From positions 496,001 to 560,000 of the forward strand of contig NBIV01000006.1 in NCBI GenBank assembly GCA_003194525.1: a stretch of 64,000 nucleotides of DNA, in the 5' to 3' direction. Both the position numbers and the translations under genes were made by a program. Shown here one piece after another: positions 17,351 to 49,248 of the stretch. Under the pieces are notes generated by a model. That model saw only the letters and a program-made list of their open reading frames with translations. It did no database searches and was not told the origin of the DNA. This DNA comes from Gracilariopsis chorda (Eukaryota; Rhodophyta; Florideophyceae; Gracilariales; Gracilariaceae). Within the stretch, counting starts at the first letter, position 1, and each line of letters starts with the position of its first letter.

Positions 17351-17574
17351 TTCCAAGGGTTCGTCGGTGTTCTCGTAATGCTAGATAGAGGTGCTAGATC
17401 GCAAGTTTCTTAGGCAAAAGCTCAAAAATACTACGAAAATGATAGATTCTGCTAGTTTCGGGGGCTTGCCAAGTAAAAAAAAATGTTTTGGAATTCATAC
17501 TTCCATATCTTACAGAGCCTTGCCTTACCTGCACTGTGCATCGCTAGTTTCAAGTTTGGAGCAAGTTCATTCTC

Positions 17575-17586
17575 CACTAAAAGCTA
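17575..17586 (+). repeat. Candidate left terminal inverted repeat (CACTA)
   Basis: CACTAAAAGCTA, paired with the inverted copy at 30927-30938 (10 of 12 bases). Similarity does not extend clearly inward, so this is a short and weak repeat. Confidence 0.4.
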
Positions 17587-17813
17587 GATACAGATCTCGC
17601 CGCCAGCGCCATTTTGAGCAACCAACCAAAACTAAAATTTTTATTTCCATCTTTTGAATTTCAAACTTCATACTGCCCTAGTTTGACTTCCAAATCATCC
17701 TCAGGAACTCATCTGGGCAGCTCTCTTCCTTCTCACACACCCGACGCACCGCGCATCAGATTCCAATACCACCCATTCCGTCGTCCTAACAGCCTCAACG
17801 ACACTCCTAAACA

Positions 17814-18370
17814 TCACCAGCCTTCTTCTGCCTCTTCCCTCTTTCCATGCCTCCTCTTCAACCGACTCTTAACCTCCAATCCTTCTTTGTCCTTCTCCTC
17901 CAACCTCCTTTTCACGACCCCTCTACCTCCAGGAGTAACCGGAGACCCACTCCCGACAGCAGCTCCCACCCCACCTTCCCCTCCACCTCCATACATCTTC
18001 TTTCGCATATCCTCAACTAGATGCACAGCCCTGTCCACCAATAAAAGCCGCTTCTCCAACTCCAAAATCCGTCCTCGCAACTCCTCATTCTCCTTCCACA
18101 GCCTCCCCAGCTCCTCTCTCACACACGCCACAACCCCTCGAAGTCATCAGATGATAGGCACTCCGCCCGATGGTGCTTCCTCAAATTTATCCTCTGCATT
18201 CATGGATGGGAATACTTCACTGCATTTCCGCTTGCAGGCCACCCACTCGGCAACGAGTAAACCAGGTCCACCCAACACATGTCCGCTCCCATAGCCAGCT
18301 CTCCTGGCGTACTTAAGCCAGCGGGAAGCTTTTCAGAATTCTTATCGTCAAAGCTGCCTGCGGTTTGCTG
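17814..18370 (-). pseudogene. Coiled-coil C-terminal remnant, probably the tail of the ParB-like gene
   Basis: The frame at 17814-18131 encodes a strong coiled coil ('ELGRLWKENEELRGRILELE') followed by a Gly-rich linker and a basic tail. Between 18150 and 18300 the same strand gives more protein-like sequence ('LLVAEWVACKRKCSEVFPS') ending in two adjacent stops just before the coiled coil. The stretch directly continues the strand of the ParB-like gene, but a frameshift and stops intervene. It may be that gene's C-terminal oligomerisation segment, or a separate small gene. No start codon is convincing. Confidence 0.4.
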
Positions 18371-20677
18371 CTACTCTGCCTCGTCTTCTTCATCATCCAC
18401 AAAGTCCTCCTGAGCTTCATCCTCGCTTGACTCGAGCACAATGATCTCCCGTGCTGTCAACCACCTCTTCAAACCTTTTCTTTCCATACTACGTAGCACC
18501 TCCACCTCCACCACCTCCTGCGAGATACCAAAGCCAGGTCGCTTCACACCAGGTGCAGTCGGCTTACGATTCGATCGTCTCTGCCTCTTCACCGGTGGCT
18601 CAAAATCAACTGACTCTTCGTCTTCATCTACGTCCAGGACCTCCACTTTACACTTCTTTGAGATTCGCTTACTTCTTCGAGGCTCCTGGTCAGCGTTCGG
18701 AGGCTCCTGAGCAGCTTCCTCATTCAGACCAAGCAACTAGTTCACGTCCAAATCAGCCACAGAGGGAGCAGCAGCAGTAGCATCCGGTCCCTGCATGCCC
18801 GACAAAGCGCTGGACATGGTCCTACGAACCTCTTTCATCTTATTACTCACTCTGGACTCCAGTGAACTCCGTTTCACTTTCGTATACCACTTCTCCAGAC
18901 GAGATGTGATATACTTTGACACAGTCTGTTCAGAATCGCCGATCGTAACCGTGGTATTCATGACTTCCTGCACATTCGTTTTCTCGTTCATAGAACTCCC
19001 CAGCTCATTGCAAAGGTCATATGTTCTAGAAGCACAGTCGAAGAAGTACCTTCGCAAATTTTCAAACGGTCCCATCTTCACAGTGGCCGCCGACCTCACT
19101 CGAACATGCGCCTGTAGACATTGGATAGTAAAACGAAACTTATCCCCTGACATTCCAAGCAGAATATCACTATACACATGAGTGATTCCAATTTGAGGCG
19201 TCTCCTGCCACAACACATCGAAGAACTCTAACAGACCGGGATTACGCGCAAACTTCAGAGCAAGAGCAGGATGGCGATTGAAATGACGTATCTTCCCTTC
19301 TTTCCCCTTCGTCTCACTGGTCCACAACACCCCCGTGATTTGGCTTTGTTTAAGCTTCGAAAAATCATACCCATCCTGCTCTACGCCATTAAGAATAAAC
19401 GAAACAGCAGTGTGAATCTTATCTGCGAAGGACATCACCAGAACATTGGAGCTCAAATCATTCAAAGTCTTCCCCAGCCACGACACCTCATTCAATGTCA
19501 CTCTCCGGCCGTCGTTCCGTTCCCAAAGCATGACGTCCAAACCAGCAGTAATCCGTGCCCATTTCGCACCATCCTGCTCGAGGTCCAGTAGAACACTCAC
19601 TCGATGGAAGCCGTCCACCAAAACCACAGGAACAATCAAACGCCCACTCGCATCAATAGCGTCACGAACCGGCGCATTCTCCAACAGGGCCACCGCAATC
19701 GACCCAAGAGAAGGGAGCCATCCGAAGTTCCTCAGTTTGTTCGAAGTATCTCGAAGATGTTTGTCATTCTTTGAACGAACCATGTTCTTCGGAAATCGAA
19801 TGTTGCGGATATCGATTAAGCAATTATGCTGGTCATAATCATCTCGATTGATGTCTAAGACACCCAAACTGTTATCCACCTCTTCCGAAGGAACAGCATC
19901 ACCGTCATCATATAAAACCCTCTCCTCCGGATCACTATCGTTCCTGGAGAGTACAGGCACCTCTATGACGTCATCATCGGAGCTTGCCCCGACTTCAGGG
20001 CCTCTTCGGTTTCCAGAGCCGCCCGCGAGGGCACCTGATGTTCCTCCACCGCTCTGACGGGTTTTCACCGGAGCCTCTCCACCGCTCTCAAGGCTCTCCA
20101 CCGGCGCTTTTGTCACCAAAATGCTTGATGGTGTACCAGCAACAGCCGGAAGGCGCTTGACTTGTCTTGCAGTGGTCCTGGAAGCTGTACTTCTGTGGAC
20201 AATCTTCACATTTGCTCCTGACTGCGGTGGAACCGACTCATTCCCCTCTCCGCCTTCATTTTTGACACTCATCATCGCAGTGTCCCATGCATATAAACCC
20301 GCTGAAACCATCTCCTTCAAAGTTGCGGGCGGTTCCTTGGGACCCCCAAAAACATAAGGGTACTTCTCATCTTGGTGTGACGAAATATTTGTCTTAAAGA
20401 TAACCACCGAGTCCTCTCCAGATCTCTGCGTAGAGGACAGGGGATGGTTGTGTAGTGAACGACAGAGTCTCATCCCAGGCCCCCCAGCAAGCCCCACAGC
20501 GCGCAATTTCGCCTCTCCTACCTTCACCTTCGCATCACTACTCCCAACTCGTACGAACAGATTGACCTCCGTATCGCCCTTAAGCACCTGGCCCGTATTG
20601 CCCCCAATTGATGGCTCAGGGTGGCTGGCAGTTCGTGTGGCGCCCCGGCTCTTCGCCTTGCCTCGAGTGGTCGGCAT
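18371..20677 (-). pseudogene. ParB/sulfiredoxin-fold-like protein with acidic, SIM-like tails
   Basis: An ATG at 20677 opens 646 codons to a TAG at 18737-18739; the same frame stays open for 121 more codons to 18371. Residues 1-295 are low-complexity. Residues about 295-405 fit the ParB/Srx fold: a basic helix-rich entry, then 'VVLVDGFHRVSVLLDLEQDG' with DGFHR at 355-359 in place of the ParB DGHHR, then a beta strand and 'LNEVSWLGKTLNDLSS'. That fold binds nucleotide and DNA in bacterial ParB; here I infer DNA binding or nucleotide-dependent clamp activity, not partitioning. Residues 234-241 ('DDVIEVPV') and 'EIIVLESSEDE' in the read-through tail resemble SUMO-interacting motifs. It starts 53 bp from the divergent methyltransferase-SET gene. 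Whether TAG is a mutation or read through is unknown. Confidence 0.6.
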
Positions 20678-20730
20678 GTTGATAACACGTCTCTTCAGCG
20701 AAACAGGCTTCCTCCGAGTCCGTTTACGTC
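20678..20730. promoter_or_regulatory. 53-bp divergent spacer, presumed bidirectional promoter
   Basis: The ATG of the ParB-like gene (20677, -) and the first ATG of the methyltransferase-SET frame (20731, +) are separated by only this spacer, so the two genes probably share control sequences. No TATA box is recognised. Confidence 0.4.
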
Positions 20731-23700
20731 ATGGCGCGTTTATCTTATTCCCAGTGGAATCCATGGCTGAGTACTTCAAAGTTCGCGCCTGCGTTTTCTT
20801 GGCACCGGCTGAGGTCAAATGCTCCCGTGAGCACGTATGCTTGGTTCAAAAGAGATGGAATTGAGCACTATGTATCGTTTTCAAGACGTTTCATGACATC
20901 CATTATCGTCAACGTAGCATCCCTGCAGTTCCCCTCCCAATTACTTGCATTGCAAAAAGAAATTGATAATTTTTTGGTCGAGGACCATGGTCCGACGTGT
21001 CGTGGTGCGCCATCATGAACATGATGGAGTGCCAGGACGTGAAATGTTAATTAAAACTCATGCCTGGCGCTTCATCGTGTTCGCGATGGAGCACCATGAC
21101 ACCTCGGACGACGGTCCTCGACCTGAAACGAAGAGAAACATAATCCATGGCAACCAAGTCTAAAGGGACTTGCGCATTCTTCGCAATTGCATTCGTTGCG
21201 TCGGTTGGGGTGATTGAAAACTTCTATTGAACCCGAAGAACAACTTTTTCTTGGTAAACAAAGCACCGGAGTGGTCGTCTCCAACAGTTTTACCCCTGTA
21301 CTTCCAAGCTACCACGACCACTCCCTTTTTGCCATCCGCCCTTTCTCACCGCTTGGAATCCCCTGTGACTGCTGCGACGTCCGCTTACGACACCGCTACT
21401 TCATGAGCTCCTCTATAGAAGAAGTTATCATGGTGTCTAGCCCAGCCTCCACTGTAACCGCGAAGGAAACGGGTTCATTCAAGATGCACGGAACCTGAGA
21501 AGAGCTTATTGATGCTTATCTTGCAGTTTGTGATGACTGCGCAGCGACGAGGCAAAATTTGAATGAGCCGAGAAGTTTGAAGCACACCGACTTTGTGGAG
21601 CTCGCGGTACAAAGTCGCAACGATCATGACTCTGCCAAGAAAATGTTTCTCACTCTCATCTGACCGGATTACATCTCGTATTCGGACTCAGAGCTCCGTA
21701 ACATGTGTCTCAGAGGGCCTCCACGTCAACTCTATCTTATGGCAAGAGTGGTGGACGTAAAGGATCGTGAAGAAGACAGGCCTGTAAGGGACTTCTAGAA
21801 GGTTTATTGTAAAAGGGAAGGGCTTAAAGGAATTCCCCGTAACGTGTTGCTATCTGTCTTTCGCAAGTCCTGGGAGCAACCAAGAAATCTTCCGCTTTCC
21901 ACACGGACCCTTGCACCGACTTTGAAATTGTCATTGGGTTGTCTATGGTGCAACAGATTGCCGTGGATAAGAAAGGAAGTGGTAGGAAGAGGAAAAGGGG
22001 CATGGCAGATAAAAAGTTCTCAAAGTGAGTTTGTCGGACAAGACACAGAGTCAGAAAGTCGGATATGGTGTGCAGCTGGTGACCAGGGCTTGGGATTGTT
22101 TCGCCCACTTCCGCGGGTTTCCCAACGTTGAGGTTATGATCTTGCCTTACATTCGACTCGACTATAGCAGTGTAGTCTTCAGCGATATCTCACAACACTT
22201 CATGGGCTTCCAACACAGAGATTGTTCCAAACAGTTTGTGGAGGAGAAGAACGTCACCACCATATAAGAAAACGTTGCCAAATGGGCATGGAATCTGCCG
22301 GACCCAGTGGATACAGCGATTTGCCTTTGTGCCAAAGAATACCTTGGTGACCTTTCTAATGTGGTCGTACAAGAGAAAATTTTCGACATCTCTGCTCCCC
22401 GCAAATGGGATGCCCTCAAAAGGTTCATCATCACGAGAACGAGACTTTTCCCCCTCTGCGGTTTGAGAACTTTAGTGAATCTCTTGTCACTACGGTTCAA
22501 GAGGCCTTAAAGTCTCTGAAGCTCATTGCATTGCATGGAAGTAATGTCAAAGTATATCAGGCTGTGAAACTAGAGCCCGCAGAAGACGTTGAGATCATTA
22601 TGGAGCCGGTAGAAACTGGTACGGCTGGTGGTGGGAACGAACGTGCTGAGCGTGTGGAAGATGGTGATCAGGGTGAGTTGGAAGAAGTGGAAGAGATAGA
22701 GATGGTAGAGGATGCGGAACGTGGTACTGCAGAACGTAATACTGCACCAAAGGCCACTGAAAGACCGCAGACAACAGCTTTGTCGCAGAACTTATCGTAT
22801 GATGTCGAAGGCATGGGGATTCGTGCACTACCGTACCCTACAACTTTGGATGATGTGATAGCTTACAAGTATTTTGAGAAGAAGATGTCCCGCAACTTCC
22901 GTCTCCACAACTGCAAGTTCGAAAATCTCACCGAAGTTGACGACAAAAAGTCTGGCGAAAGCGAGGTATCTATTGAAGGAAAGGTACAGTTCCTGCTTTC
23001 CGATCCGCCATAAGGGACTCGTTCTGAGCGTCGTTTGGAGAACAGCAAACACAATATTCTGACCGAGAAGGGCATGAGCAGGTCAGCGAGGAGGTCGTCA
23101 AAGCTTCTACGTCCTGGTGGACATATTATGCAGTTCTGCTCATGGGATCAGGTACCGTTGTGGCGGGATGTGCTACGGAAAGTTACCTACATGGATGACT
23201 CTAATACGAAGCGTTACACATTTTTCGTCGACCAACAGCCCCTCCATTTCGTACGGTCTCTAGGTAATAAGACAGGTAACGTTGGGAGAAGAAGTTGTCG
23301 GTTGCACCAGACGACAGAATAAGCTGTACATGCTGTTCGTTCTGGAGTTCCTTATGCACAACAGCACCGGATGGTCAACTATGAGAACTTCAATTATGTC
23401 GCTTCACGATAGCCAGCGTATCATGCAATCATGGATCATGTGCCGCCGATGTCAAATAGTGAAATGGTCATGTGGTCTGTGAAAAACCCGGATGGGAAGT
23501 ATACGAGGAAGAGGGTGCGACCGGAACAGAAGTGAAGGGCACTGTTTAAAGAGCGGATTTGCAGGTTCAGTCAGCCAGGAGACCTCGTGGTCGACATGTT
23601 TGCCAGAAAGTTCTCGACAGCGATGGCATGCAGGGAACTGCCCAAGCATCGGAAGTTTGTGGGGTGTGAACCGGACAAAGCTTGCTTTGAACACGCCAGG

Positions 23701-24666
23701 CATGCCGCTATTGTTCGCTTCGCTTCCATAATACGGGAAGGACACAAGGATATTGAGAAGAGCCAGGAGCTTCGAAAGATGGCCCATTGTGTTTCCTCTG
23801 CAATCCCAATGGGACGAAGCAGGCACACCGTGTTATGGAGGGCTGTCGACGGATTTCCACCGTACCAAATTCTTCCCCCACACCTTGTCGACTTTCTCTC
23901 CACTTTGTGGCAAAGTAAAATTCTAGGGAAGTTGGGAAGGAAGAAAGCTATGAATGGATGGCCAAGGGAGCTGCAGGGTAGAATGAATCTGGAGAACATG
24001 AAGTCTCTATTGGCAATGCAGGCTGTGCAATATGGGTTGCGAGTGGGCAAGTCTACTATTCGTCACGAAAAGGCTGGTGTTGGAGTGTTTGCAACTCGTC
24101 GAATTGCTGCAGGCGAGGTAGTGTGCTATTTCTACGGGACGTTGGTTTATCATGACCTTTCGAATCGGAAAGAAGTGCAAAAGACCTACGGGGAGGGAGT
24201 CATGGGTGTGAAAAAAGATCAATTCCGGAAGTATGCAGTGGAGATAGAAATCTACGGTCAACAGTTCCAATCACTTCCGCATCGAAAATAGCTGACGAAC
24301 TGGCATGGAAAACAAGCTAACCTCATTTTATGGGTGGTTCCTGCCCCTTTTTGTATTGCGGTGTATATCAACGATCCAAAGTACGTGGAAGGGGATAAAC
24401 AGTTAGATGCCATGGTGGATGGCCTCGGGAAAAAAAGGGAGGCTAATGTGCGAATGAAACGGACACTGGGAGTGGGACGAACAGCAGGGGTAATAACGGA
24501 CTACAAACGTATTAAGATGGAGGCCACAGCCAACATAGAGCAAGGAGAGGAACTCTTCGCCAGATACGGTGATGTTTATGACTGGCAAACCCATTTGAAT
24601 GTGGAGGATGGAGCGATAGTCATTGATTGGTTTTTTGTTATAAACCTTTGTTCACAGCTTGGCTAA
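20731..24666 (+). pseudogene. Beta-class DNA amino-methyltransferase fused to a SET domain
   Basis: Most coding lies in one frame from an ATG at 20731 to 24666, interrupted by an inverted-repeat insertion (20976-21123), several stops, and a shifted stretch between about 21900 and 22470. An acidic linker is at 22600-22740. The methyltransferase has motif IV as 'VQFLLSDPP', where the following Tyr codon is TAA (23011-23013), then 'LLRPGGHIMQFCSWDQ', then motif I last: 'PGDLVVDMFARKFSTAMAC' and 'KFVGCEPDKACFEHA'. Motif IV before motif I is the beta-class order of N6-adenine/N4-cytosine enzymes. The uninterrupted ORF 23587-24291 joins motif I to 'GVGVFATRRIAAGEVVCYFYG', the SET start; after a TAG come 'REANVRMKRTL' and 'NIEQGEELFARYGDVY', the SET end. 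I infer a nuclear enzyme marking DNA and histone. No AdoMet motif is perfect: motif I has ARK in place of AGT. Confidence 0.75.
20976..21123. repeat. 148-bp inverted-repeat mini-element
   Basis: Arms 20976-21036 and 21063-21123 are each 61 bp and inverted copies of each other with about ten mismatches, around a 26-bp AT-rich loop. The outer ends read GGTCGAGGACC and GGTCCTCGACC. It interrupts the reading frame of the methyltransferase-SET gene, whose protein-like sequence resumes near 21214. No target duplication is clear. Confidence 0.7.
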
Positions 24667-24927
24667 AGGGCGACGTTTATTATTTGAACGGATGTGTAGT
24701 CCTAACTTAGGAGACCATCACTTTTCAGTAAGGTTAGAAGATACAAAGCGATATAGATGTGATACAGAAACGTCCCTTTTCGGTACCAAGGAGGATTGTA
24801 TTCTCAAGATTTCACAAAAAACAAAGATTTTTGTGCGCATTGGGTGGCGAGATTTTCCCGTACAAAACACAGCGTGCGCCATCCCAGAGCGTCACTAGCC
24901 ACTTGCGAAAGAGGTTTGACTCCAAGA

Positions 24928-27345
24928 ATGGCGCCGGAGGGAAAGAAGCGAGGCCCGGCAAGTGGTGGTGTGGCGAGTGCGCCTAAGACGCGGCGAAAGG
25001 CTATTGAGGAGCGAACTGCGAGTGGGACGAAAGCAAAATCATGTGTTTCCAGGAGCACATTATCGCGGAGGAGGTCAGGATAAGGTGCTTCGAAGAGAAG
25101 GGGAAGAAGTGGGGCAAAGAACGTCGGATCCGAGCGCACGACGAGTGAGCGCACGACGAGTCAGAATTTGAAGGCTGATGCCCATGCGCATGTAGCACGC
25201 GGGAGAGATTCGGTTCGGGGACAGCGATCTATGCCTGGGTCTGGTGGTGGGTTGGAGGGTAAGAAAGGGTCGGTTGCTAGGAGAAGGGAAGAGGTACCAG
25301 ATCAGGGAGGGTTGAAAGCAAATGCGCGGGTCGAAGACCGAAATAAAGATGAAGAAATGCCGGAAAGGAAACAAATGGAAGAGGCAGTTGCGCTGAAGAG
25401 AGATGGGGCCCCAAAGAGAAATCAATATGGAGGAGAGGTAAATGTCCCTTTGGTAGAGAGTGATGGGGACGAAGAGGATCACATTGTGAAAGGGAGATGG
25501 ACGAGAGAGAGAATAAAGGAAGGAGTGGGACGCCGCTATGATTTAAAGGAAACGCGAGAAGTGGAAGAAGTGGTCAGAGCGACGGATGGAATACAGGAAG
25601 CATCGAAAAGCGGAGAACGTACGAGCACCCCGGTACCGCCGCAAAAGGTGCAAATGGCTCAAGACTTGGAAAGTGATAAAGGAAGCAGAACGCCGCGGAC
25701 TCCGGACGGAATGCGAGAGAGGGAACAAAAGGTTCATCAGTGGCCTAGTGAGCCTGCTGAGGAGCGACGGCTGCCTGTCAATATTTTGAGAGATGCAGAG
25801 AATGACGACATCGGTGTGATGTGTCGATCTTTGTTAGTTGAGAGGATCAATATGTTGAAGGCAGAACTCGGGCAGATCAAAGGGGACCACTGCAGCCTAA
25901 AGATGTAGCTGAAGCTGACGCAAGAGGAACTGAAGAGGATGAGAGAAGAGATGGGCGAGAAGAATTTGCTGATAGATAGCTTACGGGAAGGGATGAAGGT
26001 GAGAGGAGGGGAGAAAAAGGGATCTGAAGGTGAAAAGGAATTGCTAGGGCGTAGGAAGTATGTGGTTAATGTGCAAGAAGGTTTTCATGGGTTTGCCAGG
26101 GTAGTATATGATAGGTTGTTGTACTACGCGAAGGTGGAGGTATCGGAGCTTTGTTTTACTTCGGAGGGTGTGGAAAGGAACTGGACGAATCGATGCGAAG
26201 TATTGGGGAAGGGAAAAGTGGGGAGTGTGTTTGTTGTGGGAGGAAAGGAGATTGTACCTCGATGTCCGTTTGAGATTGCGTCTGAGATGAGGTCGTACAC
26301 ACCTTCGTTGCGAGGAGGAAGTAATGAACTATTGAAGTACTTGGTTCGCGTTGAGATTGAGGGGGAGAGATGGGAGTCGATTCCTGAAGCGGGTAGGAAG
26401 GATCAATGCGTGCGGGAGGTTGTTGCGGACAGGTGTTTGAGGCAACGTATGAAGCAGAAGTTGAGTGATGTGATTGGGGTTCGGAAGCGTGTGGCACGGG
26501 ACAAAATGTTTTCGTTGCTTGGATATGACTTGATAGCCAGACGTGTGAGATCGCGAGAGGGGACGGAGCTATACATTGAGTTGAAGAAGCAGTTAGAGGA
26601 AGCAAAGACGAAGTTCAAGGGGGATGGGGAGGCGAAGAGCGGTAGTTTATGTTCTTGGAGGATGAAAACAATCGAAGATCCTACGTATTCTGGATTTCAG
26701 GTTGCTGGGCAGCTGAGAGAGTTTAGTGAAGGGGACATATACTTCAAGAACGGGGCTGCGGTGGAAGTTTTGGAAGAATTCATGGGATATGAGGTGGGGA
26801 CGGAAAGGGAGGGAAAGATGGAGTACGTTGATGGGACAGTGATGCATTTGGCTCGTTTGGATGCGTGGATTGGATGTGTTTTGACGGCAATGGACACAGA
26901 TTTGGGGCGTAGAGGAAGACGGCAGTTGTTATTTTCTACGTTGTACGGTGAGAATCTTCCGCTCGCGGGAGAGAATATACTTGGTGTGGCATGGGAGAGG
27001 GTGAGAGAGCTACATCATGAAGAATTGGAGAATGAAGGTTGCGATGAGGGTGACCCGCGTTGTATAGCTGGCAACGGGGATAGAGAAGTGACGGTAGCGC
27101 TGCGGATACCTTCAAAGCGGAGGATATAGCTGGCCTTGAAGGATGAATACTTTTTGGAACATATGACGAGACGGCTGGGAGGGGTTCTAGACTGTTATCT
27201 TGCTGCGTGTCGGCCAGAAGATGTGTGGATGAAGAGGTTGGTGAAAGAGAGTCGAGATATTGGGAGAGGTGAGGTGACGGATCATGTCGAAGAGCAGTGG
27301 GAGGAAGGTCGGGGAGGTTATGAAGAAGAAGTTGAAGAAGAATAG
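24928..27345 (+). pseudogene. Large orphan protein, basic N-terminus and coiled coil, unknown function
   Basis: An ATG at 24928 starts a frame that stays open to 27345 (806 codons) apart from stops at 25081 (TAA), 25906 (TAG) and 27127 (TAG). The first about 320 residues are Lys/Arg/Glu-rich and disordered. A coiled coil crosses the second stop ('MLKAELGQIKGDHCSLKM', then 'LTQEELKRMREEM'). A globular region follows (about 26060-27120) with 'FHGFARVVYDRLLYYAKVE' and 'YVDGTVMHLARLDAWIGCV'. The C-terminus is acidic. I recognise no family. It follows the methyltransferase-SET gene on the same strand and ends 2 bp from the convergent transposase gene, so it is probably an intrinsic accessory gene of the transposon. 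Confidence 0.6.
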
Positions 27346-27347
27346 CG

Positions 27348-30300
27348 TTATTGGTGGAACGGATGGTTTACTGATCTGTTGTAGAATTTGGTGCATAGGG
27401 CTTTGAAGTGGTGTAACGATAGAAGCGGTTGATGTAGAAACGGTGGAAGCGCCAGTGAAGACAAGGAGTGAATTGGGGGGGCGGGGTAGTTTTCTCGAAT
27501 GACGTGGACTGCACCAAGAATGGAGGTGGAAGGAATGAGACCAAACCAAGGAGATATGTTGTCGTCAGTAGAAGGTTTGAAGATGGGAACTGGATCGGTG
27601 GTGTGGTCCCGCTCGTCATCGGTTGACCATGTAAGGCATACGCATTTGAGGGTGATATCGACATTGTCGCGAGGTGTTACGAGTTCAAGGAATTGTGCGA
27701 ACGCGAACTTTTTTGCAATGGGGGCGGAAGAGTTTGAAGAGGGGGAAGTTAGCTTGAAGCGAACTAGAGCGATGAGCTTGGAGACCCATACAGTGGGTGT
27801 GGGTGGAGAGGAGAAGTTGGTTCCTGCGACAAGGATATGGCAGAACTTTGGTGATCTGGAAGGTCCGAATGATGGAACGGCGAAGATGCGCTGGAAAAGA
27901 GGGACGGAGGGTTTTTGGAGCACTAGTTCGTTTCGTTCTTGGTTGTAATTGTCTAGTGTTGGTATGTAACCGCCCATGACGTATGCGGAGTTGACGAAGG
28001 GGAGGCGACTTCGAGGGAGGTTGCTCGGTGAGGGATTTAGCTTGAGATATTCGATGGAAAGGGAGACGAAGGAATGAAGTGTGGTGTGACCTAGTTGTGA
28101 GATGATGGAGAGCGTGTCTGAGGAAAAGAGTTCTTGAAAAAAAATCGGCCTTGCGTTTTGGGTAGATGCAAGGTACTTGGCGGCTTTGAAGATGTCGTAG
28201 AAGGAAAGATGTTTTCCTTCAAGTACGAAGGAGGTTTTGCAGAGTTGCGGTTGAGTTTGAGACCGAGCATGGGAGGATAGTGAAGGGTCTTCGGAAAGTG
28301 GATTCCAGTCTTTGAAGAGATTGTAGCGGTGCATAGCACGGATGGTTTCTGTATGGGCAGTGGCTCTTCACTTGGAAGTTTTGGAGTAATGTGATTTGAA
28401 GAGGACGTGGGCGTGCTCGAAGATGCCTGCGTCGTTGAAGTGGAGACCCCCGTATCGGCGTATGTCTTCGACGATGTCGTCGAGGAGATGGAACGTGAGG
28501 TTGCCGAGGTGGGAGGAGTGGTAGGGTCCGAGAATGGATGCGGCTGTGACTTTGAAGGATCTGATGTGTTTTTCGAGAGAAATGAGGGAGGTGTCTGTCC
28601 ATTTCGAGGAGGAGCTGTATTGCATAGCGGAGAGAAGGGGGTCTGTGTACTTGGTGAAGACGGAATTGATGGGGGAGGTGTCACTTTCTTTGCAGCAACT
28701 GTCGAAGAAGGCGCCGATGAAGGAAAAGACCATGTCTAGAGTGCGATAATCCTTTGCTTCCGGCATTCCTCGTAATCCTTCTGTGGCGAAGAAGCCGTTG
28801 AGGGCCTGGGAGTTGTCGGGGGTGGAGAAGTCGATGTGGAGGCCGGGTGCAAGGGAGTCCTTTTCGATGGCGGCAAGGATGTGGTTGGAATGTTTCAGTA
28901 TGGAGGTGTGGATGGAATGGAACAGACTTTTGGTGTTCTTGGGGCCGACTGTGGTGAAGAGTGATTTGGAGCGGAGTCGTTCGATGGCGGTGGCGTTGAT
29001 GAGCTTGGAGACGCCGAGGTGAAAGTTATGAAGTGGTTCGAAGGCGAAGCTGTCGTAAGAGGAGAGGAGTGGGGTTGTGTTGAAAATGGCTTAAGATTCG
29101 ATGAGAGAGGAATAATTTGCGAGGGAGAGGGACTGGAGCGCTGTGGTTGCTTGTTCCTTTTTGGTGCGAGCGACTTTCGGTGTGCGGGCGAATGGGGCTT
29201 CGTCGGAGTCGCGAAGGAGAGCGGCGTGTTCTCTGTGTTTGTTCCGGCTCTGGGATTGCGTGCGGAAGTGTATGGGGTTTGTGTTGAGGGAGAGGTGTTC
29301 GCGAGGGACGGTACATCTGGGGCAGGAGTGCTGTGGTCGTGTTCCGTGCGAGATGGCGAGGATGTCCTTTGCCTCTGGGATGTCTGCACAGTAGCTGGAG
29401 AGGATGGGGTGGCAGTCGCGGAGTAAGTTGTGGGCGTCACGGAAGAAGAAACCCAGAAGAGCGGAAGAGAGGAATGGGTTGCGGATTGCGGAAATGGGGC
29501 GCTGAATGAGGTCCATTCTTGTTTTGCGTGGGATGTTGGAGGAAGAATCTGAGATGAAGTATCCGTCGCCAGGCGAGGAAGAGGAGGAACAGGAGGTTGG
29601 GAGGTATCCGAATAGGGGGAGGTTTTCGGAGATACACGTTCGGCGGAATGCGTCGGAGAAGTTGAGAAGGGTGATGTGAAGGGGATAGGAGATGATGGAG
29701 AAGCTTTTGAGTGAGGTTGCGGACCTATTGGGGTATAACTGGACGAGGCCGACGATTGATTCAATACCAGTTGTTTCGGGGGTGTTCCAGACGATGTCAT
29801 TGATGTGGCACTGCATGATGGCCTGTTCAAAGGCACCAACGACTTTCTTTCCGAAGGCTGCAGCCATAGAATGGGCGAAGGCGGGGGTGGAAGAAGAGGA
29901 AGGTGAAGATTGGGACGCGGGTTGGAAGAAAGTGTTGTTGAAGTGTGCGAGAGTGAGTTGTTGATTCAGGACGTCTATGGCGCGTTTTTGGAAGAGAGTT
30001 GCGGAGAAGAAGTTGTGGTCGTCGGAGATTGTAAGAGAGATGGACCGCTGGAGTTGATACGTTTCTTGACAAGGTGCTCTTAGAGTGGGACGCACTGCTT
30101 TGCGAAGGAGATGGATTTCTGGAAGGATGACTTGGAGAAGTCTGGGTGGTTCAGAAGGGAGGTGAACTCGTCGGCTTTGCGTCTGCTGAAGGAGGAAGCG
30201 ATGGAGGAGATGGAGAGGACGAGTTGCTCGAGGTGGGGGTTGTGGAGGAGAGGGGGGGGGACGGGAGGAGGTAGGGGAGGCGGGTTCGAGGAGATGCCTG

Positions 30301-30618
30301 AACAGAGGGCGTGACTTACCATGTGGTGTGCGTCTTGTGCTTGGAGGCAGAGGGTGGCCTGTTGGATGTGATAGGGTTCCTCTTCGGCGAGGGGGACGTT
30401 GTCTGAGGGGTGGTTTGAGGGAGTGGGAGGAGGAATGGTGGAGAGGTTTGGAACGGATATTCTTCGCTTGGTCCTTGGAGGGATTTGGATGAGAGCGTTG
30501 GCGGAGGAGGAAGAACGGGTGTAGGGGGTGAGTCGATAAGGCCCCTGCACTGGTGACTCTGGAGAGAGAACGCAGTGCGGCCATAGAAGGTGCAACGGGA
30601 ATGGCAACAGGGTATCAT
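27348..30618 (-). pseudogene. Plavaka-like (CACTA/EnSpm-type) transposase
   Basis: An ATG at 30618 begins MIPCCHSRC, an N-terminal zinc finger (C-x3-C-x12-H-x-C), followed by a Pro/Ser-rich linker with two frame changes (near 30520 and 30080). From about 30080 one frame runs to 27348 with stops at 29091 (TAA) and 28368 (TGA). Family blocks in order: 'IVGLVQLYPNRSATSLKSFS', 'LPLFGYLPTS', 'CHPILSSYCADIPEAK' with 'CPRCTVPREHL', 'DSFAFEPLHNFHLGVSKLI', and 'LTFHLLDDIVEDIRRYGG'. The last two correspond to the D-x2-H and E-containing helices of the RNase H-like core of Tnp2/Plavaka enzymes. Expected role: cutting and joining the element ends. Length, about 1090 codons, is typical. Assignment is from remembered family patterns. 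Confidence 0.7.
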
Positions 30619-30926
30619 GGCGGGGGAGGGAGGAGGCGATGTTTGGAAACAGAGAAGGGAGCGAGGGTGGTGGCGGAATGGGATATTGGGGAGCGTCATA
30701 TTATGGCGCACGGAGATGAGGTGTTGCAAGTGATGCAGAGCGTCTTTTCGTAGCACGTGGAGCAGCGCATGCGATGCAGGGAGCAGGTCAGGCAACGGTG
30801 GATAGAAAGCCAAAGCTATTTGATTATGCAAACGCTATGTATCTATTCTATGTATTCCATTTTGCTATTTGAAGGGGCAATCGCTCTGGACCGGTGAGAT
30901 TTGGATTCCACGTGCCCCGGAGAGGG

Positions 30927-30938
30927 TAGATGTTAGTG
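30927..30938 (-). repeat. Candidate right terminal inverted repeat (TAGTG end)
   Basis: The plus strand ends TAGATGTTAGTG; its complement CACTAACATCTA pairs with 17575-17586. It lies about 310 bp upstream of the transposase start, a normal distance for a subterminal region. Confidence 0.4.
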
Positions 30939-31147
30939 GATTCTGGCCCTAATTTTACCACCAAAGGAACTTGGAAAGTTTTAATAAACTGCTAGTCTTT
31001 TGTTCCAAGTAAACGAGCTCTGTGCTATGTATGAAATTATTTTGGGAAATTTGATCCATTCAAAATTGGGTTTGAATAGTCGTTATTCGTTCATTTTAAT
31101 TCTTTGCATTTTGATTGTCCAACTAGCATCCTTAAAACACCGACGTG

Positions 31148-31475
31148 TGTCCGCGGGAAGCTTGGGGGCGACTAGAGGACGGAGGTGATGCTTGCCTGTA
31201 CTACTCAGTGGCTGGCTGCACTCGAACCAACTAATATAGTTGGCGAGTCGCTCTAGATCACCGGTAAATACTACTAAAAAATTAAATAATATAGTACACT
31301 ATTCTATCGTGCACTGTGTTGCAGTGCAAGGTCCATCGGAGGTCACACTTCACATCACAATTATCTCCGACCCACGTGGCTAATATAGACATGGGCCAGT
31401 GGTACTCTGGTCCTTGGTCCACCTCTTCGGAACTCCATCTTCCCAGCCGTCTGACCTTGGGGCTATCGTAATACA
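31148..31475 (-). repeat. 3' LTR of element D
   Basis: On the minus strand it starts TGTATTACGATAGCC and ends CGCGGACA (TG...CA). It is alignable along its whole length with 41260-41586, with many scattered substitutions, so insertion is old. Confidence 0.85.
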
Positions 31476-31490
31476 TACTCCCCCCCTTAG
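31476..31490 (-). other. Polypurine tract of element D
   Basis: The minus strand reads CTAAGGGGGGGAGTA directly before the 3' LTR start TGTATTACG. Confidence 0.75.
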
Positions 31491-31739
31491 TTCCTGCCGC
31501 CTCGGCAGAATACACTGTCGGCCAACTTCTCCTGACGGCCATTTCTGTGTACTGTTTTTTAAGGACTGGTAGGGATAGCTGCACTAGCGCTGGCCACGAT
31601 GGCAATGGTCCGGTGACTCGTTTAGCACCCCCCCTACTAGGCCTTAGTAAGGTCTGGGAAGGGAAATGAATCGCCCATTGGTCGTGCCCCCGTTCCTGTT
31701 CCGTGTCAAATGCCAGCGGCCACGGAGATGAGTACATCA

Positions 31740-33830
31740 GTTGCCGATCCATTGGGTGCCCACGTCTACGGCCGGCATGTAGCTACTGTTCGCTTGCAAC
31801 CAATTCGTTCGCTCCGCTTCTTTCGGGTCGTCCCTTCTACCACCACAGCGATAGCGCGCAGAGTCTGTTGGTCTCCACGATATAGTGCATCTGGAGTCCT
31901 CCTATTACGACGCTTGGCCATTCCGCTTGGCGACTATGACGATCGGCATGTCCTTTGGAACAGATTCGTACTCAACCCCTTTGGGCCCTCGCCCACTGTG
32001 CAACGACAGTGAATGCATCCCGTGGTCCGCCGTCACTGTGGATTCCTCTCCAATGGCTTTAGTCCCCGCCAGCAGCGCGTATGCCCATCCTGGTGAGAGG
32101 TATGGCCAGAACCTAGGGCGCAGTCCGATGGCTACAAGGAGTACCCATTTGCTCAGTTCGGTCAAGGATTTCATCCACTAACACGACCAATATTTGGACG
32201 CCTGTAGATTCGAGGCAGTTCCAAATTATGTCCGTGAGAAGAAGAACGCGCGAGAGACCTCCTGGTACAACCGTTGGCTACATCTCCATGCGGACATCCG
32301 AGCGGTGGCGCGTTGCCGTGCCTTGGTCCGACCGGACATGCTGAACGTCCGATGCGACGAAGAAGAAGATTACCAATAGAGGGTTAGCTGGCTCTTCGCG
32401 GACCTATATATCTTACACGGTGACCCTCGGTCTTCGTACCCACCTGGCGACCATAACCTCCTGGGGCTGGTGTGCTACAAACCGCCTTATGATTGGCTGT
32501 AATGGATTGGCAACAGTTCCGTTTGGAATGAAATGATCGAACCCAACTGCCGTATCCAGACGAATTTGAAGTACTTCTTCTGCTGGCATCAGGTCGAATT
32601 CCACGACTTGCCACCGTCCCGTAGGGCCAACGTTTATCTTCCCATGCCCCTGGTGGCTGGGAGCCCGGAGGTGTCCATTTGGCATATGTGTAATCTCCTC
32701 ATGGTCCCTACTGCGTCCATTTTGGCTTACCATACCACCCAACTCTAGGGCGATATCCGTCAGCGACTTCCTTGGCTTACCTGGCAGGTCGTCTTTTTGG
32801 AATGGGCGGTATTCTGCCTCATGGCCTTTTTGGATACTGCCGGTACCGGCGTGCATACGAATGTCCGTGAGGCAGACCATCTTATTTGCAATGAGGAAAT
32901 CATTCTGAGTCCTGAAGGCCGATTGGTGCCCCTGCCTCCCCACCTCATCGGGTTCATTCGCGAGCTAAGGGTGCAAAACATAGTCCGCGAGACCTTGTAT
33001 AGCGCGGAGAACAAAAAGGAGCTTTTAGATAATGTACAAAGGTCGATTGGGCAAAAAAACCTGGATACTTGTGGTACGACTACGACGCAGACGAGTTCTG
33101 GCCGATTCCGGAGCCTCCTTTGGGTCGCGACAAGGGCAATGCCTACGAGGGGAAGCCTTTATTGGATACCCCAGTCAATGTACCGCTTCAGACCATCCCA
33201 TACTATTATCCCCAGGCCATTAGGGTTGATGCCGCTTGCCTGCGACCTCCCTCCAATGGTCCGCCAACCGTGCCTGTCCTCCTTTGTCTTGGGAGCCACC
33301 TTCGGAGCACCCCGTGGTCGAGCTTCCTGAGTCATCCATTGGGCCAACGGCCACCATTACCGGTCCGCTCCGTTCTTTGGCGGTCACTGCGCCACCGCCA
33401 CCTCCGCCACCTGCGATACCTATGGCCCTAACTCGAGCCAATGAAGAGCTTGTCAGGGTTTGCCGTTCGGCAGGCGTAACCGCGCCCATTGGGTTCGTCA
33501 AGGCGTTGCGTGCAGCGCATTATTGGGTCCGTAGGGCGTCAAAGTACCGGTACCTGGTGGGTAGGAACCAAGAGATCAAGGAGGAATTAGCGACTATTCT
33601 GTAGGAGAATGCTAAAGTTCTTTTAACGTCCATGGCGGCCGACTTGGATAATCGATTCGGTCTGAACCTGACGGGCACTGAACATTCTCTGGCTCACTCG
33701 TCTGCTTCGGCCCATAGTCCGGCTCACAAGCGCGCACGCGTCAGTTCTTCTGCTGGTCCATCGGCCTCACTGGTCGCTGGCGTACTAAGTAAAGCCTTGA
33801 GTCTTCCATACTGTCTACATGGGTCGTAGT
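31740..33830 (+). pseudogene. Antisense plus-strand ORF remnant inside element D
   Basis: Between the integrase and the 3' LTR the plus strand carries protein-like sequence. At 32850-33060 there is 'DHLICNEEIILSPEGRLVPL' and 'LIGFIRELRVQNIVRETLYS'. After a frameshift, 33069-33240 gives 'YDYDADEFWPIPEPPLGRDK'. A Pro-rich stretch and 'MALTRANEELVRVCRSAG' follow at 33420-33600. After a TAG the frame ends near 33830 with 'SSSAGPSASLVAGVL'. The region before 32797 is less certain, and a minus-strand frame is also open at 32413-32943. The V-R-x3-D-x-[LI]-C pattern and an SAGPS ending are shared with the plus-strand remnant at 4796-6585. No function is recognised. Confidence 0.45.
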
Positions 33831-35045
33831 TCGCGCTGATACTCGTCGTTCAGGCCCTGAGTACTTATTCAATTCCCATGGTCTGTGTTTTGGGAGGTCA
33901 AACCTTACTCCTTTGGCCATGATTGGCGCCCTTCAGACCCCTTGAGACCCTTTCTTGAAGTTCAACTACGGAGGTGTGAAGTCGCTGCGGTTTCCGTTCG
34001 GCCATAGGTCGGCCTGAGGAAGACGGTGAAGGCAGTACCATGGACGGCAGTTCAAGGTCACGCCGTGGCACGCGCGCAGTCCTATTGGTCGGAGGCGGTG
34101 TGTGGCGAGTGGCGAAAATAATCTCTGTGGCCAGAATCTCCCCCCCTCTCTCTAAGGGCACGCTCTGTGTGGCCCATGGTGGGGTAACAACGCCATGTGC
34201 TTAGCGAGGACGTCTGCATGGTGGCCCTGGCAAATGGCTGGTTCCCCATGGTTGGACTTTGGTAGAGATACACCTTGGGTCTCAAAATGCGATTTGTACA
34301 TCACAGACCCTTCGGGTATGCTTTCCTAAGGGCAGTTCTGTGGGACCGATATTAGCGTTGTCACTGTTTTCTGTGCGGGCGTGTGGAGGAAGAAAGAGCG
34401 AGCCGCGCGGCCAGGAGGCGGATTGCCGATGGTCCGTGACACGCGCGCATTCCTATTGGCCAGCGGCGTTTCGGGGCGCCTTGGCAGTGAACATGTGGTC
34501 AGGAATATGACATTTTCGGAGATGGCGCTCCATGTAGTAAATTTTGGACCAATAGCGATTAAAAAAAATCGCCGGGATATTTTCAGGCGGAGTCCACTAG
34601 TCGTCCTCCGGGCCATAGCCATACCAGCGGACTTTGTAGAGCACCTCACCTTTTCCGTCAAGGCCAGCGGAGACTATGCAGTCTACGGCATATTCGCGGC
34701 GGTCTTCCTCTGGTAAATACATGTCCTCGAAGGTTCCATACCCGTCGTCTGATGAGACGGTTTGGCAGCCACGGAGGTCGTCGCCAAAGGCACCCTGTGG
34801 CCCGCTTTATTGACCTCAAGACCAAGAAGGTCGGCGGTAACGGCGCGTGTGCCCGGTGGTGGTAGCAGCGTCAGGACGTGTGGGGATGTGCGCTCAACGG
34901 CCTGCAGTGCACTTGCACTTCCGGTAGGGGGTTGCATTGGTCCAATTAACGGCCGAGGTGCCATGGACACGTGGTCCGTTGACACAATATCCTGAAGGCC
35001 GTCTCCGTCTATTGTAACTGTATGGCCATTGAACTTTATTACCCT
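33831..35045. other. Element D non-coding or unassigned region with an internal repeat
   Basis: No domain is recognised. A GC-rich block, CCGTG[GA]CACGCGCGCA followed by TCCTATTGG, occurs twice (about 34064-34090 and 34434-34461). Each copy contains an inverted CCAAT box (ATTGG), which would suit a promoter. Plus- and minus-strand ORFs around 34326-34716 overlap each other and cannot be told apart. Confidence 0.35.
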
Positions 35046-36100
35046 TTATGGTCTGGTGGAACGAGGTACCTGCTTGGACGCAGTGTCCTCGGGCTCGTGT
35101 TTTTCCCTGGGTGGCCGGTCCAAGTGGACAGAGTAACCTGTAGAAACCTGTGGCACAAACCAGATGGCCTTATCAAAGTCCGCTTTGTAGCGCTTCTGCG
35201 CTTTGTCCAAATGTGTCTGTATGGCCTTCAGGATAGAATCGATTCGCTTACGCGAATACCTTTTGGCTTGAGCTGGCGTAATTTCGCCAGTAACGTCCTG
35301 GGAGATGCCTTTATCCCGTAGGTCGACCATGTACGGCGGGGGGGGCTCGGACCAGGGTGAGGTCAAAGTTTGTCATACCCGTGAACCAATGGACTTGATT
35401 ATTGTAGGCATAGACCAAAGGTGGGACGTAATCGTCCCAGTTCAACCGGTGCTCTGCCATTTAGTGGTTCAACCTAGAGGCCAATGTTCTATTAAAACGC
35501 TTAGCTTGTCCATTGGTCTGGGGGTGCTAGGCGGTGGCTAGGAGGTGTTTTAGACTTTGGGCCGAACACACATGTTCAAGGAACTTGGAGACAGATTGTG
35601 GGCCATTGTCGGTCAACAGATATAGAGGCAGACCATACGGGTATATCCAATGGACCAGAAACACCATAGCAACATCAGGTGCCGTGGTGTACCGTAGGGG
35701 AATAACACGCGTCATCTTGGAAAACCTGTCGGTAATAAAAAAGATGAAGGAGTGCCCATGGGTCGATTTAGGGAAAGGCCCTAAGATGTCCATAGTGAAG
35801 AATTCCAAAGGTCCTGCCGCAGGGAATAACTTAAGTTTACCCTAATGTATTGCTCGTGTCCCCCGAGTTTTAGCGCATGCTGCACATCCCCGTGCAGTTT
35901 CCATTATATCATTGGCCATGAGGTGCCATTAGATTAAGGTCCTTAAGGTCTGATACACCTTCGTCCCGCCTGGGTGGCCAGACAACCGAGGGTAATGAGC
36001 CATATATAGAAGTCTGGCCTGAAGGGCCTTTGGAACAACGCGCTGTATTGCCCCATCCAGTGGAGGGCAACAGCACAATATTTCGTGACGGTCGTAATCA
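35046..36100 (-). pseudogene. Element D integrase
   Basis: The zinc-binding domain has its His pair before 35930 and 'ARGCAACAKTRG' after it. The core at 35527-35808 has 'FFTMDILGPFPKSTHGHSF' (first Asp) and 'LYLLTDNGPQSVSKFLEH' (second Asp). The third block, after a stop, reads 'NGQAKRFNRT', with Lys where the catalytic Glu is expected. The C-terminal part at 35046-35366 has the typical basic helix 'HLDKAQKRYKADFDKA'. Stops and the Glu to Lys change make it inactive. Confidence 0.8.
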
Positions 36101-38225
36101 AACAAGGACCCAGGGGTCCTGACTGCATTAGCCCACTGGACACACTGTTCATCACCGTTCTGGACCGCGAGGAATTCCTCGAGGGATATGGGGGTGAGGT
36201 CTCCTATCTCCGTTTCGCCCACGTGGACTTCCAAGGGTGGGTCCTCCCAGTCAATAGTGCATAACATGACCTTAGATTCTTCTCCCTTCCCTTGGCCAGT
36301 GGTAACTTCTCCTACCAGGTCACCCATTTCCGGATCATCGTCTGCATCCTGTGGACCTTCCCATATGGTGGGAATCTCATCGTCCATTGGGATTTGGTCC
36401 GTGCCATCGGTCAGGATACGAGATAACGCATGAGCGGCTTGGTGCTCTAAGCCAGGCCTATAGGTAACCTCATACTCAAATTTGGCCAACTGGAGTCTCT
36501 AGAGGGCCAAACGGGATGACGCATCGGTCATATTCAAAAGCCATTGGAGGGCATTGTGGTCTTTCCTAATGGTTAGCCGAGTATCCTCCAGGTAAGGCCG
36601 CAGGTGTAAACCTGACTAGACAATGGCCAAGCATTCCCGTTTGGACGTGCTGTAATTACTTTCGGCATTCGTTAACGCACGGCTCCAGTATCCAATCGGT
36701 CGATAGTACTTCGGAAAATCCTGCTCTTGGAGCAGTGCGCATCCAACCTAGGTTGCAGAGGCATCCGTATCGAGGATGTACGGTTTGTTTGCCCCGGGCA
36801 AGGCCAAGACTAAGGGGTTTACCAGATTGTCCTTGAGGCTCTGGTAGGCTTCGAAATGCTCGTCCGTTAGGTCATCAAATTCCGAAGGGGTCCCTTTCTT
36901 GAGCATCTCGTTCAACGGAGACGCAGTCTTTGCGAACCCAGGGACAAACCTTCGGGACACATCGCATGGACATAAAACGTATCGCAGTTCCGTGTGGGTC
37001 CTCAGAGACTTTGCATCCCTAATGGCCTTCGTCGTATTTTTTGCAAACTGGAGCTTACCAGGTAAGACCACATGGCCAAGATAGTTCACAGAGGGCTGGA
37101 AGAAAAATATTTCCTCAGCTTTAGAGTGACACCGGCCTGCTGGAGTAACCTTAGGACAGCCTTCACATGAGTGAAGTGTTCACCAACGGACCTCGAAAAG
37201 ATGATCACGTCATCCAAGTAGACCAGGGCAAACTTCCATTTGACCCTGGATAGTATGATATCCATTGCTCGCAGGAAGGTCGCCGGTGCCTTCATCAGTC
37301 CCAAGGGCATCCGCGTGAATCGGAACAGTCCCTCGCAGGTCGTAAAGGTAGTCAAGGTCTTAGCCGTGTCGTCCATTGGTACTTGCCAGTAGCTGCAATT
37401 TGCGTCCAATCTGGTAAAAACTTGCGCCTCCCTCAGGGAATGAAAACCGTCATCCATCCTCGGAATGGGATAGGTGTCCGGTTTGGTCACGGTATTGAGC
37501 TTACGGTAATCAATGCGAGACCATATGGTACCATCTTTCTTGGCCACAAAGACAAAAGGGCTTGCCCATCCGGCCTCATTGGGTGGGGCATGTTCAATTA
37601 CTCCGGCAGTCTGCATCTTCCCCATTTCTTTCGCCACTACTTCTATTCCTTTCAAGCCCGTCCTATAAGGGTGCTGGTACTGCGGTGTGGCTCCATACTT
37701 GAGGTCGATGCGGTGTTTAGTCGCATCTATCTGTCCCAGCTTGCCCCTCCACATCCCGGCAAAGTCCTTCAGGAGGTCAGTGACCTGTTTCCTGTAGGGC
37801 TCGAAATCCTCACCGAGGTTAACTTCATTCTCCCGATTGGCCAATGGTTCGCTACTCGGCGCCAGGTTTCCGAGCTGAACACCCATGATTGCCACTGGGG
37901 CAGGTAAGGCAATGTCAAATACCGTAACTTTGGGCAGTGTAGTGGGATTATCGCGGAAAATGCTCATCGTAACCGTGAATGGCCTATAGGGTACGACATT
38001 CATCACTCCATTGTCCATCAACGATAGATGCTTCGTGACCAGCTTGGGGTGATTCTGCAACGAAACAAGACCTGAGCATTCACACACTGCAGCGGCCCTC
38101 TCTTGGGTCGTCGGCGGTATTAATATCGCCCTGGCCAAGCGTACCTTGTTGGATACCGTCCGCTTGGCGAACCTCGGTCCTGAGAGGGTGGCTTCGGGTC
38201 CAGGGCGTGCTCCCAAAATGGCCAA
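36101..38225 (-). pseudogene. Element D reverse transcriptase and RNase H
   Basis: RT lies in an unbroken 379-codon frame (37086-38225) that includes the pre-RT linker: 'AGWASPFVFVAKKDGT', 'MPLGLMKAPATFLRAMD' and an intact active site ALVYLDDVIIFSR. The connection and RNase H continue in another frame (35929-37089) with 'LNEMLKKGTPSEFDD', 'LDTDASAT' and 'LEHQAAHALSRI', broken by several TAG codons. This is the longest uninterrupted RT in the minus-strand gypsy copies of the window. Confidence 0.85.
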
Positions 38226-38827: not shown

Positions 38828-38884
38828 GGACAGGCTATTGCAGCAAATTGACCTAAGGTTGCTGCACGGGGGTTGTAAGGGGTG

Positions 38885-41259: not shown

Positions 41260-41586
41260 TGTCTTCTGGAAGCTTGGGGCGACTAGAAGACGGAAGTGGT
41301 GCTTGCCTTTACTCTTCAGTGGCCGGCTGTACTCGAGCCAACTAATATAGTCGGCGAGGCGCTCTAGACCACCGGTAACTACTACTAAAAAACTAAATAA
41401 AATTCTACACTATTCTATCGTACACTGTGTTGCAGTGCAAGCTCCACCGGAGGTCACACTTCAGATCACAATTATCTCCGACCCACGTGGCTAATATTGA
41501 CACGGGCCAGTGGTGTTCTAGTTTTTGTTCCACCTCTTCGGCACTTCATCTTGCCAGCTGTCTGAACTTGGGGCTATTGTACTACA
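41260..41586 (-). repeat. 5' LTR of element D
   Basis: On the minus strand it starts TGTAGTACAATAGCC and ends CCAGAAGACA. Partner of 31148-31475. Confidence 0.85.
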
Positions 41587-41623
41587 CAGAAGATCTATAT
41601 CTACAGAAAAGAACAGGGCAGAT

Positions 41624-49244: not shown

Positions 49245-49248
49245 AACA

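Follow-up and report, generated by a model that had tools for sequence, protein, structure and literature searches.

Plavaka DNA transposons are known to carry accessory epigenetic enzymes. Kojima (2025, PMC12730594) describes Plavaka elements with TET/JBP dioxygenases of the PE type, marked by HxE, and reports in passages of the same paper that oomycete HarbingerS and MuDR transposons carry SET genes. Here we describe a decayed Plavaka-type transposon copy at positions 17362-31145 of a 64,000-nucleotide stretch of the genome of the red alga Gracilariopsis chorda (contig NBIV01000006.1, positions 496,001 to 560,000; hereafter the window). Its genes encode a transposase, a DNA methyltransferase fused to a SET domain, a ParB-like protein that is joined to a dioxygenase-like half in fuller copies, and an orphan protein. 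The composite transposon is real, and two of its proteins are unusual fusions; the association of a transposon with an epigenetic enzyme is known, and the gene content is new.

The closest relatives in the literature each share part of this arrangement. Like the TET-positive fungal Plavaka described in PMC12730594, the element combines a Plavaka transposase, a 2- or 3-bp target duplication and an accessory gene, here dioxygenase-like, within the element. Its termini are CGTCGG..CCGACG, whereas those given there are TGT..ACA for PlavakaA and CATCA..TGATG for PlavakaB, and its dioxygenase-like domain has HxD and a ParB-like fusion, whereas the PE type of that paper's Plavaka has HxE. The methyltransferase-SET fusion is not found in the passages of PMC12730594 drawn on here, and its main text does not contain the word ‘ParB’. 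HarbingerS and MuDR, in the passages of that paper that treat them, are likewise DNA transposons with a histone-methyltransferase-type gene, but use other transposases, and no fused DNA methyltransferase is mentioned. The bdelloid rotifer N4CMT (Rodriguez 2022, PMC8885841), as presented in parts of that work, is a bacterial-type amino-methyltransferase in a eukaryote that is tied to histone methylation; unlike the gene described here, it is a host gene that silences transposons, is fused to a chromodomain and is not transposon-borne. The Plavaka giant repeats of Amoebidium are also long, contain several genes with few introns and include a Plavaka transposase but, according to passages of PMC11244446, form tandem gene clusters of up to 50 kb, with many genes for tyrosine recombinases. 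No report of a ParB-like or methyltransferase-SET gene in Plavaka was found in the titles and opening parts of abstracts of the open-licence papers listed; Iyer 2014, to which this literature traces Plavaka, may describe more accessory genes.

Results

Extent and ends of the element

The window was aligned with seven copies fetched from the same genome (C46, C35a, C35b, C63, C1, C114 and C153). The window copy spans 17362-31145 on the plus strand (13.8 kb), and fuller copies are 15.8-17.6 kb long. The left end is common to six of the seven copies, in which homology begins at 17356-17362 (in C153 only from 21510); the right end is common to five, in which it reaches 31129-31150, with C35b and C114 ending sooner. 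The element is bounded by the terminal inverted repeat CGTCGGTGTT..AACACCGACG. Its left arm, at 17362-17389 on the plus strand, begins CGTCGGTGTT and recurs with single-base variants in C46, C35a, C35b, C63, C1 and C114; its right arm, at 31118-31145 on the minus strand, finishes AACACCGACG and was located by comparison of copy ends and inverted-repeat detection. The 28-nt arms are 75% complementary, and the two ends of the window copy agree at 10 of the first 10 bases and 18 of the first 23.

In four of the five copies with both ends readable, the 2 bp on either side match when compared by eye (C46 CA/CA, C35a AA/AA, C63 AT/AT, C1 TA/TA). The fifth is the window copy itself, with mismatched TT/TG flanks; because retrotransposon sequence lies on both sides, its own target site cannot be judged. 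The original prediction had placed CACTA termini at 17575 and 30938. The copy alignment and the end sequences rule these out, since the common ends lie at 17362 and 31145 and lack the CACTA-type termini of CACTA/EnSpm. It had also set as a check on the unit that all four genes recur between shared ends with a 2-3-bp target duplication, and they do so in other copies with a 2-bp duplication, at ends other than those proposed.

To the left of the window copy lies a Gypsy-like reverse transcriptase fragment, recognised by eye from the open reading frames (ORFs). A long terminal repeat (LTR) retrotransposon at about 31146-41589, with RVT_1 at 37086-38282, abuts the element on the right; its repeat pair (87.8%) lies at 31148-31475 and 41260-41586.

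The unit recurs in fixed order and spacing

Recurrence was assessed in the 91.3 Mb, 1081-contig genome by DNA searches with the ParB-like gene (40 of 89 candidates scored), the methyltransferase-SET gene (38 of 133), the orphan gene (40 of 160), the transposase gene (40 of 182) and the left end (40 of 189); copy numbers from these searches are lower bounds. The unit occurs at dozens of places at least. Taking one main match per copy and dropping fragments, we counted 20 methyltransferase-orphan pairs within 1.5 kb (38 and 40 matches listed), all 217-220 bp apart, and 21 orphan-transposase pairs (40 and 40 listed), 18 of them abutting and the rest 1, 9 and 1263 bp apart. For the ParB-like gene and the methyltransferase there are 18 pairs (40 and 38 listed). 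Among the matches listed, only two copies, both on C314, are opposite-orientation neighbours within 20 kb. Unpaired matches may be true absences or may follow from counting among the matches listed.

The unit is thus one mobile element with its own ends, many copies and a fixed gene order, and the predicted composite transposon with methyltransferase-SET and ParB-like genes is supported. The many related copies in the same genome make the gene set real; that host genes merely adjoin a transposase, a reading for which we found no point in favour, is refuted by the recurrence of the genes together, in one order, at dozens of places.

Transposase and classification

The transposase gene occupies 27348-30834 on the minus strand, as judged from ORFs and Pfam; it is split into several frames, and its upstream limit is approximate. 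The Pfam profile PF18759 matches at 29091-30614, minus strand (E 2.2e-12; score 47.3 bits, cut-off 26.3), confirming the predicted Plavaka-like transposase. The inverted-repeat ends and the 2-bp duplication, the latter judged from the matching flanks of other copies, agree with the Plavaka pattern of inverted repeats with a 2- or 3-bp target duplication. The element ends CGTCGGTG..CACCGACG are neither PlavakaA nor PlavakaB termini, and so we assign it to neither group. The transposase and orphan genes converge exactly as foreseen, with 2 bp between their stops (27348-27350 and 27343-27345).

The methyltransferase-SET protein

A decayed DNA methyltransferase-SET gene lies at 21403-24666 on the plus strand, as delimited by Pfam, by its 1060-aa homologue P0002 and by motif reading. 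In the window its ORFs match a DNA methylase profile in one fragment (4.3e-5) and SET in others (0.0021 and 0.037), all below the Pfam cut-offs. Both domains exceed the cut-offs in other copies, with N6_N4_Mtase at 1.2e-13 in C63 and SET (PF00856) at 5.7e-7 in C46 (30.3 bits against 22.4), as predicted for the protein. A DPPY motif followed by an FAGT-type motif is the mark of beta-class amino DNA methyltransferases. DPPY is kept in all seven fetched copies and FAGT in five (FGGT in C63, FAET in C114); in the window copy they are damaged to DPP-stop and FARK, in keeping with the decay that the original prediction had recognised.

A protein search with one broken copy, read through as the query (6716 candidates scored), returned four relatives: P0002, 69% identical over the whole query, P0003 (30%), P0004 (36%) and P0005 (27%). 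Three of the four exceed 1000 aa. All four score above the N6_N4_Mtase cut-off (E 8.6e-14 to 3.8e-19), with DPPF in P0004, so that profile and motifs together place copies and relatives in the beta class. The SET profile exceeds its gathering score in P0004 and P0005 and stays below it in P0002 (20.5 bits, 0.00068) and P0003 (14.3 bits, 0.057).

By sequence, the nearest solved structures to the methyltransferase part are bacterial adenine methyltransferases (DpnA/M1.HpyAVI, MboIIA, CcrM and RsrI) over a short stretch of about 40-67 positions, and the SET part has a weak PDB match to EZH2. A structure model of P0002 is of low confidence (predicted local distance difference test score, pLDDT, 42). 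Its Foldseek list, which is supporting only, holds adenine methyltransferases and the rotifer N4CMT, with SUV420, SETD8 and vSET for the SET part.

Residue 1 of P0002 matches C46 at a point equivalent to about window position 21403. This makes ATG 20732, on which the prediction of a divergent pair 53 bp apart had relied, an improbable start of the gene; the two divergent starts would then be about 725 bp apart.

The ParB-like gene and its dioxygenase-like half

On the opposite strand, the ParB-like gene runs from its ATG at 20677-20675 to 18140 (18140-20677, minus strand), with an in-frame stop at 18737-18739. The predicted long ORF (18737-20728, minus strand) is present and carries the motif LVDGFHR. 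The window copy lacks the dioxygenase-like half of the gene: at 18140-18144, other copies have an extra 2.3 kb (C35b, C1, C114) or 3.8 kb (C46, C35a, C63) that encodes it. The original prediction overlooked this loss of 2.3-3.8 kb, and with it the dioxygenase-like half of the fuller copies and, in the longest copies, a membrane-like gene and a more complete coiled-coil gene.

The longest frame over both halves, in C1 (L038:69-3254), is 1062 aa without the N-terminal part. The second half carries H-T-D (Q-T-D in C1 itself), then G-R-G-D-V-F-H, then R-Y-H, an HxD..H..R order that we take to be the 2-oxoglutarate/Fe(II) dioxygenase pattern. The stretch is present in 13 of the 20 ParB loci (L001-L020) taken with 1.5-kb flanks and in 14 distinct copies overall; HxD is kept in nine of the 14 and the second His in 12, with losses that differ between copies.

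Protein-database searches with ParB-dioxygenase queries (about 8000 candidates scored in each) gave one relative of the 1062-aa protein above threshold, P0001 (1452 aa), and a profile of the second half gave one more, P0006 (1032 aa). Both relatives contain both halves. P0006 retains HTD and GRGDLFH, and LVDGxHR is common to P0001, P0006 and the window. The ParB-like half has no ParB match in Pfam and no meaningful match in the PDB; PDB searches with P0001 and with alignments of the dioxygenase-like and ParB-like parts gave no meaningful match, and a structure model of the ParB-dioxygenase protein is unusable (mean pLDDT 29). Because meaningful Pfam and PDB matches are lacking, we base the labels ‘ParB-like’ and ‘dioxygenase’ on motifs and context. 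Of the Pfam profiles that the original prediction had named for a search, N6_N4_Mtase, SET and Plavaka gave matches and ParB gave none. Its remark on TET/JBP-type enzymes in fungal transposons finds a counterpart in the dioxygenase-like half of the fuller copies, without a meaningful match to a family profile.

A younger sister family with open frames

A search of the same genome with P0002, in which 43 of 401 candidates were scored, gave 45 matches; these include shorter ones and the old family, which stands at 64-72% identity. Five of the matches listed are near-full methyltransferase-SET copies 94% identical to P0002; four have 1065-aa frames without stops (C332, C53, C241, C745) and one, C48, has a single TGA. 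The orphan search (104 matches; 102 of 265 candidates scored) found 821-aa open frames at C31, C48, C53, C550 and C976, and the transposase search (97 matches; 85 of 348 candidates scored) found 1160-aa open frames at C31, C386, C53 and C259. On C53 all three stand side by side, each open. Since these frames are open, at least three sister-family proteins may be expressible in their present form.

Sister-family members were chosen by identity, by eye (22 methyltransferase, 20 orphan and 39 transposase matches); the second fragment of a gene was left out, as were some orphan matches at 70-74% (C911, C360, C990, C63, C8). All three genes occur in order on at least 10 contigs; for 15 of the 39 transposase matches, neither neighbour is among the matches listed. 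A third, more distant group is represented by at least eight orphan matches at 43-45% and at least seven transposase matches at 43-49%.

Discussion

We favour the reading that this is a large, autonomous, cut-and-paste Plavaka-type transposon that has assembled accessory chromatin genes for anti-silencing or self-marking, and we give it about an even chance (roughly 0.5). We count for it the fixed spacing, the ends with their 2-bp flanks, the domain matches in copies and relatives, the adenine methyltransferases nearest in the PDB, the dioxygenase-type motifs kept in most copies, the same fusions in distant proteins and the open frames of C53. There are precedents for its parts in passages of two papers, namely transposon-borne TET/JBP in Plavaka (PMC12730594) and an acquired rotifer amino-methyltransferase tied to histone methylation (PMC8885841).

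From the sequences we infer a mechanism that would most likely be anti-silencing or self-marking; the original prediction had likewise suggested epigenetic self-marking or targeting. The transposase would move the unit. The beta-class methyltransferase would methylate adenine (or cytosine at N4), and the SET domain fused to it may methylate a nearby histone (or another protein), so that the element's chromatin would carry a mark of activity or of ‘self’. The ParB/DGQHR-like domain could bring the fused dioxygenase to element DNA, where it may oxidise either the silencing methylation of the host, 5-methylcytosine (5mC), or the element's own mark. Together, these parts would protect the element against host silencing, or would time its movement. 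If this is true, DNA and histone marking meet on one mobile element, which offers a direct route to how a genomic parasite evades silencing; it may also open the question of whether adenine methylation has a role in fungi whose main mark is 5mC.

Several observations weigh against this reading. P0001 has His-x-Ala (HTA) in place of HxD. The DGQHR profile matches P0006 only, and weakly (7.3e-5; score 22.6 bits, cut-off 58.85), with no match in L038, P0001, the window, L005 or L015. For the dioxygenase-like half, searches of Pfam and the PDB up to E 10 gave nothing meaningful. The SET domain of the element reads YIND at a motif position where NH is usual. In the sister family, the genes read are the methyltransferase-SET, orphan and transposase genes, and the ParB-dioxygenase gene is not among them. 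Furthermore, at least eight contigs (C253, C64, C37, C232, C144, C12, C546 and C281) carry a compact derivative with a truncated methyltransferase (residues 420-1014) and a transposase frame of 681-911 aa. The two genes are 1245-1248 bp apart, too close for the orphan to fit between them. The spread of these derivatives implies that a copy can spread without the full set, though proteins from other copies could move them.

The last point to be set against the favoured reading is the pattern of substitution among the old copies, expressed as the ratio of nonsynonymous to synonymous rates (dN/dS). It was computed for 20 copies of the ParB-like gene, 19 of the dioxygenase-like half, three of the membrane-like gene and seven or eight of the remaining genes, with the five other frames of the same stretches as controls (0.58-1.22). 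In frame, we obtained 0.82 (interval 0.71-0.95) for the ParB-like half, 0.85 for the dioxygenase, 0.80 for the membrane-like gene, 0.84 and 0.82 for the methyltransferase, 0.64 for SET, 0.84 and 0.86 for the orphan, and 0.63 (0.50-0.77) and 0.83 for the N- and C-halves of the transposase. The accessory values (0.64-0.86) are not separable from the five control frames. The transposase N-half is lower than four of its five controls, the fifth being 0.58. The controls thus rule out dN/dS among the old copies as proof of function. Since the old accessory genes diverged without detectable constraint, it is the sister family and the distant homologues that carry the argument for function. C/T differences between copies fall most often before G, in raw counts that are not normalised; RIP-like decay (repeat-induced point mutation) was considered.

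These same dN/dS values and the amplified truncated derivatives of the young family are what would be expected if the accessory genes were captured by chance and carried along with the transposase without aiding it, as is the absence of the dioxygenase-like half from seven of the 20 ParB loci (each with a 1.5-kb flank). Such passive carriage is unlikely in our estimate, though it deserves serious attention. It sits poorly with the long open methyltransferase-SET, orphan and transposase frames of the younger family, and with the same fusions in proteins only 26-37% identical, in which most motifs are retained (HTA in P0001 and DPPF in P0004 being the exceptions). A more ambitious form of the favoured reading is doubtful: here one fused protein would write marks on DNA adenine and histones, a second would join a ParB-like domain for loading or spreading to an eraser of DNA methylation, and the two would form a complete, portable chromatin system that marks and defends every copy.

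Dam methylation times Tn10 and Tn5 transposition after replication. By analogy, methylation laid down by the element near its own ends and erased by its dioxygenase could switch on transposition after replication, or control its target. The presence of writer-like and eraser-like domains in one element and the closeness of the methyltransferase to adenine-specific enzymes both fit this idea, as does the activity of CcTET on both 5mC and N6-methyladenine given in passages of PMC12730594. It leaves the SET domain unexplained, the recognition site of the methyltransferase is not known, and we regard the idea as improbable.

A decayed virus or an endogenous giant-virus insertion is very improbable. 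In its favour are several long genes without obvious introns, phage and bacterial relatives of the methyltransferase and one sub-threshold match of the ParB-like ORF to SU10_MCP, a family of phage capsids (E 0.037; score 14 bits, cut-off 24.1). Against it, the element has inverted-repeat ends with 2-bp duplications and encodes a transposase, none of its ORFs that were tested matched a capsid or polymerase above cut-off, and 36 and 600 pattern matches in viral contigs and 97 in prokaryote contigs yielded no relative (one pattern set being of low complexity and little informative).

Other features of the element and the window

The orphan gene, as predicted, lies at 24928-27345 on the plus strand; no family was found for it, and its N-terminal part appears by eye to be of low complexity. 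At the left end, an ORF at 17814-18143 on the minus strand is the remnant of a coiled-coil gene, which forms a 277-aa frame in C35a (coiled coil judged by eye). The membrane-like gene of the extra stretch has an open frame of 400 aa in C46 and 355 aa in C35a, with several hydrophobic stretches, and C63 also aligns to its region. In C1 a remnant of this gene is fused with the left-end coiled-coil gene, and for this reason the shorter copies look like deletions.

The divergent spacer (20732-21460) is variable, with stretches missing or duplicated in other copies. Among the six copies that cover it, 21147-21460 is absent from C35b, C1 and C114, present in C46 and C63 and partly present in C35a. 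An inverted repeat with 66-nt arms (82%) lies within the spacer at 20971-21128.

Rfam and tRNA scans found nothing within the window. Beyond the transposon, 53182-59925 holds a young Gypsy-like element with 1064-bp end repeats that are 98.3% identical and with aspartyl protease, RNase H and integrase zinc-binding domains. A possible Copia element at 44144-49524 has a 277-bp repeat pair (91.7% alike) that encloses a sub-threshold match to RVT_2 (9.1e-5). A 1.3-kb inverted repeat (49534-50835 and 51412-52714, 93.9% identical, about 0.6 kb between the arms) may be a long hairpin or two opposed insertions. Likely host genes, encoding a zinc-binding dehydrogenase and a Methyltransf_16 lysine methyltransferase, are found at 61138-62199 and 62611-63579.

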